NCBI RefSeq assembly: GCF_000182745.2
Contig: NC_016027.1
Span: forward strand, 2,076,001-2,140,000
DNA length: 64,000 bases
Reading direction: 5' to 3'
Source: Komagataeibacter medellinensis NBRC 3288
GTDB taxonomy: Bacteria > Pseudomonadota > Alphaproteobacteria > Acetobacterales > Acetobacteraceae
In this document: piece after piece, positions 34,340 to 41,060 of the stretch
How positions within the stretch are numbered: position 1 is the first letter of the stretch
Layout of the letters: each line of letters opens with the position of its first letter
The notes under the pieces: generated by a model
What the model was told of the DNA's origin: nothing
The model's input: only the letters and a program-made list of their open reading frames with translations
The model's database searches: none
Position numbers and translations under genes: made by a program

Positions 34340-37210
34340 GTGCGCGCAGGCAGGTGGACCTTAAGATCAGGATATGGATTTTTGGCGATCTTCAGCCGTT
34401 TTGTCCCTGACTCGCTTTCCTCTGGATCGGTGCCTTCGCGCCTGCGCGAACGGTTGACGGAAGCGGGGGGGCTTGGGCTATGGATCGTGGCACTCTGCCT
34501 GACACTGGCATTGTGGAGCTACGACCCGCGTGACCCTTCGGCCAATACCGCCAGCAGTCAGCCGCCGGACAACCTGCTGGGCAGGCCGGGTGCCTATCTG
34601 GCGGACTTCATGCTCCAGGATTTCGGGATCGTGGGCATGCTGGCCATCTTTTGTCTGTTGGCATGGGGGTGGCGTCTGATCCGCCACCATGGCCTGGCAT
34701 CGGCCATGCTACGTTTCATCGCCCTTGTCTGCGGCCTGCCGGTCATTGCGGCCGATATCGCGGCCCTGCCGCTACTACTGCCGGGACTGCACGCGCCATT
34801 GTGGCCAACCGATGCAGGGGTAGGGGGTGCGGTCGGCCTGTCGGTGGCGCATATGTCCATTCAGGCAGCAACCGTGTTCATTGGGCACTGGGGCCCACTG
34901 CTGGTCTGGCTGCTCGGACTGGTTCTGGGCGGCCTGCTGCTGCTGCTGGCCATGGCGCTGTCTCTGTCCGAATGGAAGGCGCTGGGCCGGGCCATCCGCT
35001 TTGCCGTGCGCCAACCCGTGGTGCTGGTGCGCTGGCTGCAGCACGTAAAGCATCGCACGGCCCCGCAGGCACATGATGACACGACTACGGATACTTATCC
35101 CGCTTATCTGACACGCAAGGCGGAGCCAGCGGCCGCGCGCGCGGCGGACACTACGGGTCGGGAGCCATCCTCCCCATTCCGCACCCCTTTTAATGCAACG
35201 CCTCCTGCGCCGGTCGTCACCGCACCCGGCACGGCCATGATGCCCGTAGACAGCACGCCGCCGGCAAAGACTGTTGCAGCGCCGGAAACCCGTCCCGTTG
35301 CCCTTGCCAAGACGGAGGCCCCTTCGCAGGCCCTGCCGGGCCGTAAGGTGGACGCCCCAAGGCCCGCACAGGTTTCGCTTCAGACCAGCTGGATGCACCC
35401 GCCGGGCATGGATGAAGAGGTTTCGCCCCCGTTGCTCGGGCCCGCCCCCACCTCGGACCGCGCGCCGTGGCATGAAGAACCGCCCGTAACCGAGCAGAAA
35501 CCCTTTATCGTCATGCCCGAGGATGAGGACGACCTCCCATATTTGCTCCCTGAGCCTGCGAAGCCGACCTTCCTGTCGCGCCTGTTCTCTGGCGGTGGGA
35601 GCCGCGTGGCCGAAGACCCTCATGCCGCACCGGAAGAGGTCGCTCCCCCGGTCGTGCTGCCCGTCGAGGAGGAAAGCTACACCCCGCCACCCCAGCCGGA
35701 ATGGCAGTTTCCGCCGCTATCGCTGCTCAAACCACCACCGTCCGATGCCGCGACCAAACCAACTGAAGAACTGCTCAGGGCCAATGCTGCCCACCTGGTG
35801 ACCGTGTTGTCTGAATATGGGGTGCAGGGCGAGATCAAGGCCTACCATGCTGGCCCGGTTGTTACGCTATATGAACTTCAGCCTGCCCCCGGCATCCGCG
35901 CGGCGCGCGTGATCGGTCTTGCGGATGATGTGGCGCGTTCGCTCTCGGTGCTCAGCGTGCGTATCGCCACAGTGCCGGGACGTAACGTGATCGGGATCGA
36001 GGTACCCAACGAACGGCGTGAGACGGTCTATTTCTCCGAACTGTTGAGTGACCCGCAATGGGCGCATTCACGCAACCGGCTCAACCTTGCGCTGGGCAAG
36101 GATATTGCGGGCGAATCGGTCTACAGCGATCTTGGCGCCATGCCGCACCTGCTGATCGCGGGTACCACCGGGTCGGGCAAGTCGGTGGGCGTGAACTCCA
36201 TGATCCTCTCGCTGCTCTATCGCCTCTCGCCCGAACAGTGCCGCCTGATCCTGATCGATCCCAAGATCCTTGAGCTTTCGATCTATGAGGGCATTCCCCA
36301 CCTCATGACGCCGGTCGTGACGGAACCGGCCAAGGCGGTAGCCGCCCTGAAATGGGCAGTGCGCGAGATGGATCGCCGTTACCGCGCCATGGCCCATCTG
36401 CAGGTGCGTAACATCGCCAGCTATAATGAACGTGTGGCCGAAGCCCGTGCGCGCGGCGAGATCGTGACCCGCCGCGTGCAGACCGGCTACGACCCCGAAA
36501 CCGGTAAGCCCACGTTCGAGGAACAGCAGCTTGCGCTGGATTCGCTGCCCTATCTCGTCATTGTGGTGGACGAGATGGCCGATCTCATGATCGTGGCGGG
36601 CAAGGAGATCGAAGCCCTGCTGCAACGCCTGGCGCAGAAGGCGCGCGCGGCGGGCATTCACCTGATCCTGGCCACCCAGCGGCCATCGGTCGATGTGATT
36701 ACTGGCACCATCAAGGCGAACTTTCCCACCCGTATCTCCTTTCAGGTCATCAGCAAGTTCGACAGCCGTACCATTCTGGGCGAGCAGGGGGCCGAACAGT
36801 TGCTGGGGCGTGGTGACATGCTGTTCATGCAGGCGGGTGGGCGGATCATGCGTGTGCACGGTCCGTTCGTGGATGACAGTGAAGTCGAGGCCGTGGTCGC
36901 CTTCCTGTGTGCACAGGGCGAACCGATCTATGATGATGATGTCATCTCCCCGCAGGATGAGGATAGTGCCGCCAAACCCTTCTCCGCCCCCGCCGGAGGG
37001 GCCGAGGAAGACGGCCTGTTTGCCCAGGCGGTGGAAGTCGTGGCGCGCGAAGGCAAGGCCTCGACCTCCTTCATCCAGCGTCACCTTTCGATTGGCTATA
37101 ACCGGGCTGCCAAGATCATCGAACAGATGGAAAAGGAAGGTCTCGTCAGCGAGGCCAACCATGTTGGTCGGCGTGAAGTCCTGATGCGCCGCACCGCGGA
37201 AGACGAATGA
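34340..37210 (+). CDS. ftsK: DNA translocase FtsK
   Basis: The 956-residue protein has four N-terminal membrane segments (residues about 47-65, 90-110, 120-150, 175-220), a Pro-rich linker, and the motor from about residue 470 with Walker A GTTGSGKSVGVN (about 610) and Walker B LVIVVDEMADLM (about 742). The C-terminal gamma winged helix (about 892-950) contains the GYNRAAKIIEQME recognition helix. It pumps DNA toward the septum and activates XerCD at dif. The start GTG 34340 is uncertain. Its stop overlaps the next start. Confidence 0.97.
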   Translation: MRAGRWTLRSGYGFLAIFSRFVPDSLSSGSVPSRLRERLTEAGGLGLWIVALCLTLALWSYDPRDPSANTASSQPPDNLLGRPGAYLADFMLQDFGIVGMLAIFCLLAWGWRLIRHHGLASAMLRFIALVCGLPVIAADIAALPLLLPGLHAPLWPTDAGVGGAVGLSVAHMSIQAATVFIGHWGPLLVWLLGLVLGGLLLLLAMALSLSEWKALGRAIRFAVRQPVVLVRWLQHVKHRTAPQAHDDTTTDTYPAYLTRKAEPAAARAADTTGREPSSPFRTPFNATPPAPVVTAPGTAMMPVDSTPPAKTVAAPETRPVALAKTEAPSQALPGRKVDAPRPAQVSLQTSWMHPPGMDEEVSPPLLGPAPTSDRAPWHEEPPVTEQKPFIVMPEDEDDLPYLLPEPAKPTFLSRLFSGGGSRVAEDPHAAPEEVAPPVVLPVEEESYTPPPQPEWQFPPLSLLKPPPSDAATKPTEELLRANAAHLVTVLSEYGVQGEIKAYHAGPVVTLYELQPAPGIRAARVIGLADDVARSLSVLSVRIATVPGRNVIGIEVPNERRETVYFSELLSDPQWAHSRNRLNLALGKDIAGESVYSDLGAMPHLLIAGTTGSGKSVGVNSMILSLLYRLSPEQCRLILIDPKILELSIYEGIPHLMTPVVTEPAKAVAALKWAVREMDRRYRAMAHLQVRNIASYNERVAEARARGEIVTRRVQTGYDPETGKPTFEEQQLALDSLPYLVIVVDEMADLMIVAGKEIEALLQRLAQKARAAGIHLILATQRPSVDVITGTIKANFPTRISFQVISKFDSRTILGEQGAEQLLGRGDMLFMQAGGRIMRVHGPFVDDSEVEAVVAFLCAQGEPIYDDDVISPQDEDSAAKPFSAPAGGAEEDGLFAQAVEVVAREGKASTSFIQRHLSIGYNRAAKIIEQMEKEGLVSEANHVGRREVLMRRTAEDE

Positions 37211-37962
37211 CCCGTCCCATCCCTCCGCCTGGTCTAGCACTGCCAGCAGGCGTCCTGCCTTTTACGGTGCTTTACCGTGACAACAGGTTTGTTGTGCTGG
37301 ACAAGCCACCCGGCCTGCCGGTGCATTCAGGGCGTGCGGGCGGTCCCAGTGTCGAGGACTGGTTTCCCCTGCTGTCGCGGCATCGCAACGGCCCGTGGCT
37401 GGCCCACCGGCTGGACCAGGATACGGCGGGTTGTCTTGTGGTGGCATTGCGCAAGCAGGCCCTTGTGGCGGCGCAGGAATGCTTCGCGGCAGGGCGGGTA
37501 GACAAGACATACTGGGCCATTGTGCAGGGCGCGCCAGCCGGTCCATCCGGTGTGGTGGACGCACCGCTTGCGCGCGTGGAGCAGGGGCGGCAGTGGCGTA
37601 TGCAGGTCGCCCGTGACGGACAGCCTGCCCGCACGCGCTGGCGCGTTCTGGCCACGGGGCGCGATGATGCGGGCCACCCGATCAGTTGGCTGGAACTGGT
37701 GCTGGAAACCGGGCGCACCCATCAGGCCCGTGCTCATTGCGCGGCCCTGGGGTGCCCCATACTGGGTGATGGCCGCTATGGCGCGCGGCAGGCGGGGGCG
37801 CTACACCTGATGAGCCGGAGCATCCACCTGCCGCTGGACGTTCCCGTACATGCCATGGCCATGCCCCCTGCGCATATGCGCCGCACCATGGCACAGGCTG
37901 GCTGGACCCTTGCGTCCGGTAACGTGGAAAAGGAAGCGACACGGTGTTTGCCCACACATTGA
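37207..37962 (+). CDS. Pseudouridine synthase, RluA family
   Basis: The 251 residues show the RluA signature HRLDQDTAGCLVVA with catalytic Asp, YWAIVQG and ELVLETGRTHQARAHCAALG. RluA-type enzymes modify rRNA or tRNA uridines; the substrate cannot be told here. No S4 domain is present. It overlaps the ftsK stop by four bases and the next gene by 19, so it is in the ftsK unit. Confidence 0.9.
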   Translation: MTRPIPPPGLALPAGVLPFTVLYRDNRFVVLDKPPGLPVHSGRAGGPSVEDWFPLLSRHRNGPWLAHRLDQDTAGCLVVALRKQALVAAQECFAAGRVDKTYWAIVQGAPAGPSGVVDAPLARVEQGRQWRMQVARDGQPARTRWRVLATGRDDAGHPISWLELVLETGRTHQARAHCAALGCPILGDGRYGARQAGALHLMSRSIHLPLDVPVHAMAMPPAHMRRTMAQAGWTLASGNVEKEATRCLPTH

Positions 37963-40049
37963 CGCAGGAACTGCTGCGCGTTCTGGACCGTCCCGACCTA
38001 CGGGTGATTGCAGGCGAGCGGCAGATTATGCTGGACCCCGCGCTCGACCTTCCTTTCCGTATCCTGCCGGGTGGTGCCATCGTACTGGGGCTGCCCGCCC
38101 AGGGGCAGCAGGAGGAGACGGCTTTTTTCCTACGCCATGCCCTTGAACTGGCCCCGTTGCTGGGACTGGCCCCGCATGATCCCCTGTGCGCTGGCTTCTG
38201 CGCCGCCCGCACGGCGGCCCTGTTCTGGTACCTTGATACCGGGCGCGCGGAGACAGACGCGCCTGCCGTCTGGGTACCGGACATGGCGCGGGCCGATGTA
38301 CCCACGCCCGAGTCCCTGCGCCTGATCTGGCCCCACCTTGCGGTCCTGCAACCCACGCTGGACCCTGATGTTGCACCCGCTTCTTTTGGTGCACTCCATG
38401 CCGCGCTACGTGCCCTGTGGCCCATGCTGGGACCGACCGAAAACCTGATGGCCACGGGGGGGGACGCCCGGCTGGCCGTGGATGCGGCGACCGGCCTTAA
38501 CCATTATGGCTGCTCGCACCGGCCCCGGCCATGGGCCATCACCTTTGCATCCTCCACGGCGTCATCACTGTCCGAACGTGGCTTTGCCGGGGCGGAGAAG
38601 GCACGGCTGTCGTTGCTGGCGGGTGCCCTGCAGGGCCGGGCGGAAGCTGCCGCACGGCAGCTTGATGGCGACATACAGACCCGGATCGCGGCCCATTTCG
38701 GCCTGACGGCGGAAGAAGGGGTGGTCCTTGCCCCATCGGGCACGGATTGCGAACTGTATGCGCTGGCGCTGGCCGCCCTTGCGCCGGGAGGCCGCCCGGT
38801 CAGCAATATCCTGCTGGCACCGGAGGAGACCGGCAGCGGCGTACCCCTGGCTGCGATGGGCTGCCATTTTGCCAATGATACCGCCCTTGGTCAGTCAGTG
38901 ACCAAGGGGGCGCGGATAGAGGGATTTGCACACGATACCCTTGTCATCAACGTGCCCATGCGCGACGGGGCGGGCCATGTACGCCCGCCTGCGGATGTGG
39001 ACGACGAGACCTGCCGCCTGACATGGCGGATGCGCCATGCGGGCCAGCATGTGCTGCTGCATCGCCTCGACCTGTCCAAGACCGGGCTGCTGGCGCCCGG
39101 CCTTGCCGCTCTTGAGCACGCCTGTGCGCCGGAAGAAGGCGAAAGCTGCCCCCCCGATGTAGTGGTGGATGCCTGTCAGGCCCGTCTGGACCCGCTGCGC
39201 GTGCGGGCCTATCTGGATATGGGGTGGATGGTCATGGTGACCGGCTCCAAATTCTTTACTGGCCCGCCGTTCTGTGGCGCATTGCTGCTGCCTGCGGCCG
39301 TGCGCCGCAGGCTGGATGGCCCCCGGTCGCTGCCTGTCGGGCTGGGCGCTTACAGCTATCGCCATGCCTGGCCTGCGGGCCGGGCCTGCGGCATCCTGCC
39401 GGAAGGACACAATATCGGTCTGATCCTGCGCTGGCAGGCGGCACTGGCGGAAATGGCCGCGCTCAGCGCCATTCCGCGCGTGCTGGTCCATGACCGGCTT
39501 AAGGGATTCCTGTCCGCTGTTGCTGGCCGTATCACGGCGGACCCTGCGCTGGAACTGCTGCCCCCCGTAGCCCCCGAGCGGCCCGTGCTGGATAATGCAT
39601 GGGACTGCCTGCCCACCATTCTGAGCTTTTTTGTTCGGGCACCCGGCACGCAGGGCACCTTTCGCCCGCTGGCCCTGCCACAGGCGCGCCAGCTTTATGC
39701 GTGGCTCAATACCGATCTGTCCGGCCTTGTTCCGGTCGATGACCCCGATGCGGGCCTTGCCGCCGTGCTGTGCCATATTGGCCAGCCGGTGCCGCTGGCC
39801 CATCCCAACCTGCCCGGTGCGATTGCGGGGGCACTACGTATTTCAGCCGGTGCGCGGCTTGTCTCGGGCGAGCCGTCGCATGCGGGCATGGACCCTACCG
39901 AGCGGCTTGGGCGTGAAGTCCGCAATGTGGGCCAGGTCCTTGCCAAGATCAGCCTGATCCTGCGTCACTGGTCCCGTCTGGGCAGCGCCGCTCCGGTCCA
40001 GACGTATCTGCCGCGTGGCTGGCAGGCGCAGGCCATCCTGCCTGCCTGA
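37944..40049 (+). CDS. PLP-fold (aminotransferase-like) protein of unknown role, 701 aa
   Basis: I do not recognise a named family. The N-terminal 150 residues show no motif I know. From about residue 180 the sequence follows fold-type I PLP enzymes: VVLAPSGTDCELYALALAA (cofactor phosphate region), VVVDACQARLDPLRV (Asp for the pyridine nitrogen), then VMVTGSKFFTGPPFCGALLLP, in which Lys436 is the likely Schiff-base lysine. It may act on an amino-acid-like substrate. The GTG 37944 start has AAGGAAG upstream and overlaps the RluA-type gene. It lies directly before the phosphatase-FtsK-gamma gene. Confidence 0.6.
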   Translation: MFAHTLTQELLRVLDRPDLRVIAGERQIMLDPALDLPFRILPGGAIVLGLPAQGQQEETAFFLRHALELAPLLGLAPHDPLCAGFCAARTAALFWYLDTGRAETDAPAVWVPDMARADVPTPESLRLIWPHLAVLQPTLDPDVAPASFGALHAALRALWPMLGPTENLMATGGDARLAVDAATGLNHYGCSHRPRPWAITFASSTASSLSERGFAGAEKARLSLLAGALQGRAEAAARQLDGDIQTRIAAHFGLTAEEGVVLAPSGTDCELYALALAALAPGGRPVSNILLAPEETGSGVPLAAMGCHFANDTALGQSVTKGARIEGFAHDTLVINVPMRDGAGHVRPPADVDDETCRLTWRMRHAGQHVLLHRLDLSKTGLLAPGLAALEHACAPEEGESCPPDVVVDACQARLDPLRVRAYLDMGWMVMVTGSKFFTGPPFCGALLLPAAVRRRLDGPRSLPVGLGAYSYRHAWPAGRACGILPEGHNIGLILRWQAALAEMAALSAIPRVLVHDRLKGFLSAVAGRITADPALELLPPVAPERPVLDNAWDCLPTILSFFVRAPGTQGTFRPLALPQARQLYAWLNTDLSGLVPVDDPDAGLAAVLCHIGQPVPLAHPNLPGAIAGALRISAGARLVSGEPSHAGMDPTERLGREVRNVGQVLAKISLILRHWSRLGSAAPVQTYLPRGWQAQAILPA

Positions 40050-40085: not shown

Positions 40086-41060
40086 GTGAGCAAACACACC
40101 AACCACGGCAATTTTCTCGATACCCCTCAGCTACAAAAAGGTGTCACCCGATTCTGGCTGATCCGGCACGCGCTGGTGGAACAGAATGCCCGCATGCGGC
40201 TGTATGGCACGATGGATGTGGCGTTGTGCCCCGACAGCTTAAAGGCTCAGCGCTGGATGTACGAAGCTCTGGCCCGCCGCCTGCCGCAGCAGGCCCTGTG
40301 GTTCACATCCCCTCTGTCGCGCACGCAGCAGACGGCACACGCCATACAGGAAGCGGGTTACGGCCCGCACGCGATGCATGTCGAGCCGGACCTGATCGAA
40401 CAGTCACTGGGGGAATGGCACGGGATTGAACACCATACCCTGCCAGACAGGCTGAGCCTGCCCGCCCATCCGTTCTGGTCCGTCAGTGCCACCGAACAAC
40501 CGCCGCAGGGTGAAAGCATGGTGCAGGTCTGTGCCCGTGTGGGGGCGTGCCTGGACCGTCTGGCCGCACGCCATGTGGGGCAGGACATGGTTGTGGTCAG
40601 CCATGGTGGGGCCATCCGTGGCGCGCTGGCCCATGCGCTGCGCATCCATGCCGATACGGCGCTGCATTTCTCCATCCAGAACCTGTCGCTGAGCGTGATC
40701 GAACGTCTGCCCGAAGGGTGGCGGATCGTGACCGTGAACGAACTGCCCCAGCCTCCGGTAGTGGTCCAGCGGCCCGTCAACCTTGCCGCAGTGGACAGGA
40801 TGCTGGCCGGGTCCGGTATCGACCTGGACCGGGAGGAGGACGAAACCTATACCGAAGCCCTTTACGCCCAAGCGGTTGCCCTTGTGGCTGCCGAGCGCGA
40901 GGTATCGGCTTCTTTCCTCCAGGGCATCCTGTCCGTCGACTATGCCTGTGCTGCCCGGATGATCGCGCAGATGGAAAAAGAAGGGCGGGTCAGCGGACCC
41001 AACACCGTAGGACAGCGTGACGTGCTTATGCCCAATACGGTGGTGCAGGAGCCACGCTGA
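40086..41060 (+). CDS. Histidine-phosphatase-like protein fused to an FtsK-gamma domain
   Basis: Residues about 20-225 are a histidine phosphatase (phosphoglycerate-mutase superfamily): LIRHA with catalytic His28, LYGTMDVALCPDS, TSPLSRTQQTA, QSLGEWHG and VVVSHGGAIRGA with the second His near 173. The usual RHG reads RHA. Residues about 258-314 (YAQAVALVAAEREVSASFL to VGQRDVLM) match the gamma winged helix of FtsK at 37016-37189, with 33 of 57 residues the same by my count. The recognition-helix NR of FtsK (GYNRAA) is AC here (DYACAA). The GTG 40086 start has a weak ribosome site. Its role is unknown; a DNA-linked phosphatase is inferred. Confidence 0.75.
   Translation: MSKHTNHGNFLDTPQLQKGVTRFWLIRHALVEQNARMRLYGTMDVALCPDSLKAQRWMYEALARRLPQQALWFTSPLSRTQQTAHAIQEAGYGPHAMHVEPDLIEQSLGEWHGIEHHTLPDRLSLPAHPFWSVSATEQPPQGESMVQVCARVGACLDRLAARHVGQDMVVVSHGGAIRGALAHALRIHADTALHFSIQNLSLSVIERLPEGWRIVTVNELPQPPVVVQRPVNLAAVDRMLAGSGIDLDREEDETYTEALYAQAVALVAAEREVSASFLQGILSVDYACAARMIAQMEKEGRVSGPNTVGQRDVLMPNTVVQEPR

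Follow-up and report, generated by a model that had tools for sequence, protein, structure and literature searches.

The ftsK locus and the fusion gene

The window, i.e., the whole analysed stretch of 64,000 nucleotides from Komagataeibacter medellinensis NBRC 3288, carries ftsK and, a short distance beyond it, a gene that joins a histidine phosphatase to a C-terminal FtsK-gamma domain. The features of this region are as follows:

34,340 to 37,210, + strand: ftsK, 956 amino acids, with its own gamma domain (ORF call, Pfam)
37,004 to 37,186, + strand: gamma domain of FtsK, residues 889-949, from which the copy presumably derives (Pfam, blastn, identity counts)
37,207 to 37,962, + strand: pseudouridine synthase gene, separating ftsK from the fusion gene (Pfam PseudoU_synth_2)
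37,944 to 40,049, + strand: gene for a 701-amino-acid protein, ending 36 bases before the fusion gene
40,086 to 41,060, + strand: fusion gene, histidine phosphatase with a C-terminal FtsK-gamma domain, 324 amino acids, GTG start
40,152 to 40,742, + strand: His_Phos_1 domain, residues 23-219 (Pfam), with orthologues 82-89% identical in the other 18 genomes of the genus
40,743 to 40,853, + strand: linker, residues 220-256 (protein and DNA alignment)
40,854 to 41,030, + strand: FtsK_gamma winged-helix domain, residues 257-315 (Pfam, phmmer, Foldseek)

The open reading frame is as the first-pass annotation gave it. That annotation also placed the gene just after ftsK. The gene does lie near ftsK, but the two do not directly adjoin, since the pseudouridine synthase gene and the 701-amino-acid gene intervene. 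The latter is possibly co-transcribed with the fusion gene. Pfam, NCBIfam, and PDB sequence searches with its product returned no match; by inspection, the product contains a stretch resembling a fold-type-I PLP enzyme (TGSKFFTGPPFCGALLLP).

The reading of a histidine-phosphatase fold and an FtsK-gamma domain in one protein is borne out by both Pfam profiles. His_Phos_1 scores 153 bits (E 9.8e-45) and is covered from position 1 to 193 of 194, and FtsK_gamma (PF09397) is found in the C-terminal part with 56.7 bits and E 2e-15, above its gathering score of 30.6. In phmmer, residues 256-318 match two FtsK gamma domains of known structure, 2j5o and 2ve8, with E of about 1e-6. The tail thus belongs to the same sequence family as the gamma domains of Pseudomonas aeruginosa (2ve8/2ve9) and Escherichia coli (2j5p), and a three-helix core like theirs is predicted. 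A model of the tail only has pLDDT of 82-88 across the three helices and about 43, i.e., low confidence, in the wing. Among PDB structures, 2ve8, 2ve9, and 2j5p make up its top eleven Foldseek matches (prob. 1.00, TM 0.5-0.6, E-values of at least 0.016). The full-length prediction, based on a two-sequence alignment, has a mean pLDDT of 41 and was left unused.

The RecA-type motor and the membrane domain of the FtsK/SpoIIIE translocase are absent, by Pfam, from the 324-amino-acid fusion protein. A six-frame search of the window's assembly places PF09397 at exactly two sites, ftsK and the fusion gene. The GC content by codon position in the tail is similar to that in the remainder of the gene. 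The linker varies in length between the fused proteins of the genus described below, and alignment of the three shows a common acidic, EDE-type stretch at its end, which has a source other than FtsK.

The phosphatase domain

The N-terminal half of the protein is, as judged from its sequence, a branch-1 histidine phosphatase of the CobC/PspA/PhoE type. Residues R27, H28, R79, E105, and H173 line up with their counterparts in 1ebb, a phosphatase of solved structure. We take them to be the catalytic RH pair, the second Arg, the Glu, and the second His of the branch-1 enzymes. The replacement of the RHG motif by RHA, pointed out in the first-pass annotation, is real (LIRHALVE) and ordinary; it is no warning sign because RHA is found as well in 4ij5 (deposited as phosphoserine phosphatase 1), the solved protein nearest in sequence. 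The phosphatase half very probably still works. The fold family and the aligned catalytic residues are shared with the known members of the type (4ij5, 1h2e, TIGR03162). In contrast to them, the fusion protein bears a gamma tail and scores under every NCBIfam equivalog cut-off. The alpha-ribazole phosphatase model CobC (TIGR03162), for example, gives 104.8 bits, below its curated cut-off of 162.9. The substrate is left unassigned because every one of these cut-offs is missed.

Distribution among related genomes

The phosphatase gene is present in 19 of 19 Komagataeibacter genomes, approximately 3.1-3.6 kb beyond the ftsK gamma match, so that comparison of synteny and architecture identifies it as an ancestral neighbour of ftsK. 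The graft is confined to three species: that of the window (G000), K. rhaeticus LMG 22126 (G008), and G011. In the other 16 genomes, the phosphatase ends at about residue 221 or after an extension of 24-34 residues, without gamma. The fused species form one clade, with support of 100/99 in the phosphatase tree and 98/100 in the tree of ftsK-region DNA. Of the matches listed for 397 Acetobacteraceae genomes, the same three proteins alone reach the end of the model; in those listed for 299 Pseudomonadota genomes, phosphatase and gamma are hit as separate matches, the window species excepted. Both sets are samples, and an independent fusion elsewhere is possible.

The recurrence of the fusion in the same place in two further species also answers the concern of the first-pass annotation that the join might be a frameshift or an assembly artefact. 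Such an error is hardly conceivable for an architecture found in three separate assemblies with diverged sequences, in a frame that is open and coding-like in composition. The fusion gene is a real domain graft. A literature search for the combination of a histidine phosphatase with FtsK-gamma found none, and a plasmid search gave no matches.

Origin of the tail

The FtsK gamma protein sequence is identical (57/57) in the Komagataeibacter genomes compared, and its synonymous sites differ by 20-57%. The three tails retain 45 (G011), 36 (G008), and 33 (window species) of the 57 residues; the last value is exactly the count given in the first-pass annotation. The tail of G011, compared with FtsK of other genera, shares at most 40 residues of 57, except with that of L093, a near neighbour (45). 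As the FtsK of the genus itself is their nearest match, the tails are best read as descending from one intragenomic copy made from the local ftsK, in line with the origin first proposed, a duplication of the ftsK end onto a neighbour. The 3′ end of ftsK, from gamma to about the stop codon, would have been copied within the genome of a Komagataeibacter ancestor to the 3′ end of the histidine phosphatase gene, three genes downstream.

Two other routes from ftsK were considered and rejected. A tandem duplication that left pseudouridine synthase remnants downstream is not seen, as the tail and the DNA beyond it are matched to the ftsK locus by blastn over the gamma segment only. A recent conversion event between tail and local ftsK disagrees with the tail DNA of G011, which is 79% identical to its own ftsK and 82% to that of G012.

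A source outside ftsK would be a gamma-like protein of a mobile element. Free-standing gamma-like proteins do exist in the family, and they resemble the tail in carrying a gamma-like winged helix outside FtsK. Their partner domains are others than a phosphatase, and FtsK resembles the tail more than either of the two that were compared (22-29 of 57, against 33-45 for the genus's own FtsK). The tail of G011 also contains the genus-type SEANHVGRR stretch, and a mobile-element source is accordingly very improbable.

The free-standing loci, found by a six-frame HMM search in other Acetobacteraceae, are L086:6033-6479 and L101, L102, L103, L104, and L105. In L103-L105, the gamma-like helix is seemingly paired with a C-terminal LHPD-type, J-domain-like stretch. 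A further gamma match (G617:C1:127627-127803) lies in a 287-amino-acid open frame, apparently non-FtsK, of another alphaproteobacterial family. Separately, short and similar stretches that translate to KLFSKSF or KLFAKSF recur in the intergenic DNA of several Komagataeibacter genomes (seen in the downstream regions of G014, L059; G010, L058; and G018, L086) and look like an interspersed repeat.

Remnants in the sister species

Alignment of the DNA that follows the phosphatase shows that G002, G010, and G014 have a piece of gamma that can still be recognised but lies out of the phosphatase frame, e.g., LISGIVEIVVREGGTTTAFTRHDLLISH in G002. These out-of-frame decayed remnants in sister species are new here. 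Their scores against the gamma segment of their own ftsK are 43, 44, and 46, and none of 3000 shuffles for each reaches them (maximum 34.5-36). Other stretches of the same ftsK, aligned with the remnants, never exceed 32. The three remnants share one diagonal; G001 falls on the same one with a score that alone is not significant. No significant gamma remnant was found in the ten species with a short phosphatase or in G007 and G003.

As the remnants occupy the same site in sister species, the graft is older than the separation of these lineages and was disrupted in the sister one. There, the tail would have passed out of frame within the linker, so that a short extension became the end of the protein and the remnant was left to decay. 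Monophyly of the fused and remnant species is neither favoured nor rejected by the tree tests (AU p 0.42), and the six sisters group with support of 87/89 in the phosphatase tree.

Contact residues for KOPS and XerD

In FtsK, one face of gamma serves both XerD and KOPS (PMC5052618). XerD contacts the domain via Q1288, R1289, R1292, I1293, G1294, and N1296, with R1289 as the critical residue that forms a salt bridge, and KOPS loading involves three gamma domains on the hexameric motor (PMC5052618). The tested E. coli residues that contribute to KOPS recognition are R1300, E1303, and E1306; the E1303A change alone leaves KOPS reading partly kept and Xer support full (PMC2680272).

At the six XerD-contact positions, the window tail reads Q, G, S, V, D, and A where the local FtsK reads Q, R, S, I, G, and N. 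The set of XerD-activating contacts is thus incomplete in the tail, with R1289 replaced by Gly, G1294 by Asp, and N1296 by Ala. For this species, this gives no support to the suggestion in the first-pass annotation that XerD contacts could remain when KOPS binding is altered, as both use the same face (PMC5052618). Among the KOPS residues, R1300 corresponds to Arg in the window tail (Lys in the local FtsK), two of the tails have a basic residue there, and all three retain E1306. E1303 is lost throughout, with Ala in the window tail and either Gly or Ala in the remaining tails, and it is here that the window tail departs from the KOPS-reading set. The change of NRAA to ACAA first noted in the recognition helix is present, but the tested KOPS residue that is lost is E1303 rather than the Asn-Arg pair. 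KOPS reading by the window tail is therefore probably weakened or lost. N1296 is lost in two tails; G011 keeps both R1289 and N1296.

Selection on the tail

The tail is under purifying selection and far less constrained than FtsK gamma. Among the three fused species, dN/dS is 0.23-0.28 in the tail and 0.07-0.08 in the phosphatase, with zero non-synonymous changes in FtsK gamma; the ratios are rough, as they come from pairwise counts at high synonymous divergence. Non-synonymous changes in the tail are fewer per site than synonymous ones (Fisher p 6e-5 to 3e-4). The probability that the frame stayed open in a neutral simulation is 0.10-0.25 per lineage, which is weak alone.

The distribution of the changes is consistent with a preserved fold whose binding face has been released. 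The tails keep 18-19 of 19 hydrophobic positions, and the reported KOPS/XerD positions are changed in 15 of 27 cells, against 42 of 144 elsewhere (Fisher p 0.013). Counted by position, the excess on the contact face is modest (7 of 9 against 22 of 48 changed, p 0.14), and the test is small, with related species and residue roles transferred from E. coli by alignment.

Possible roles of the tail

The reading that is somewhat favoured regards the tail as a folded passenger on a working phosphatase, which has lost the KOPS and XerD jobs of FtsK. The hydrophobic core and the open frame would be kept by selection because a misfolded tail would destabilise the phosphatase, and the DNA/XerD face would be free to drift. 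Several observations fit such a passenger less well. A neutral tail need not have lasted, at a dN/dS near 0.25, in three species that are well separated, and a positive use is possible. The contact-face excess fades when counted by position, G011 retains R1289 and N1296, and the remaining KOPS residues (a basic R1300 in two tails, E1306 in all) are to be set beside the partial KOPS reading of E. coli E1303A (PMC2680272).

Alternatively, the tail may have been repurposed. Its winged helix would then bind DNA or a protein that is new to it, or drive oligomerisation, and thereby localise or regulate the phosphatase. In favour of this reading, purifying selection acts across the tail, three species have retained it where their sisters lost it, and some features are tail-specific in all three fused proteins (e.g., LYA, loss of E1303, loss of the Gly before Tyr). 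On the other hand, the tails are strongly diverged (68% between the window species and G008 in the tail region) and show no obvious conserved surface motif, and the sister lineage could do without the domain. That the FtsK-derived helix has become, in one Komagataeibacter clade, a new module that targets or regulates a metabolic phosphatase through a partner distinct from KOPS and XerD is a tentative alternative. Retention of the FtsK-like function is unlikely. In this case, the phosphatase would be brought to XerD/dif or KOPS DNA, or would compete with FtsK, which would provide the tie to segregation raised in the first-pass annotation. The gamma fold is retained, the tail of G011 keeps 45 of 57 residues together with R1289 and N1296, and E. 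coli E1303A gives partial KOPS reading with full Xer support (PMC2680272). Nevertheless, E1303 is gone from all three tails, the window species has Gly for R1289 and Ala for N1296, and, given that FtsK gamma is invariant in the genus, a copy that still worked should have diverged far less. The fusion protein also lacks the hexameric motor used for KOPS loading (PMC5052618). No evidence linking it to segregation was found.

The fusion protein can be compared with engineered fusions of XerC or XerD with FtsK gamma, in which gamma is likewise attached via a linker to the C-terminus of another protein (PMC5052618). The engineered fusions keep the contact residues and activate recombination (PMC5052618), whereas the natural one has lost several of them. 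Relative to the gamma domain of FtsK itself, the fusion tail is without a motor and evolves far faster, and its losses are shared unevenly: E1303 in three species, N1296 in two, R1289 in that of the window.

Implications

The locus provides a clean natural case of a protein that gained a domain when the end of a nearby gene was copied; the source gene still lies in the neighbourhood, unchanged. Intermediates are available in three species, with 45, 36, and 33 of 57 residues kept, along with the decayed remnants in their sisters. In such a system, one can ask directly whether a grafted domain persists for its function or only because its misfolding would harm the host protein. It also indicates that an FtsK_gamma annotation by itself is no basis for reading a KOPS or Xer function into a protein.
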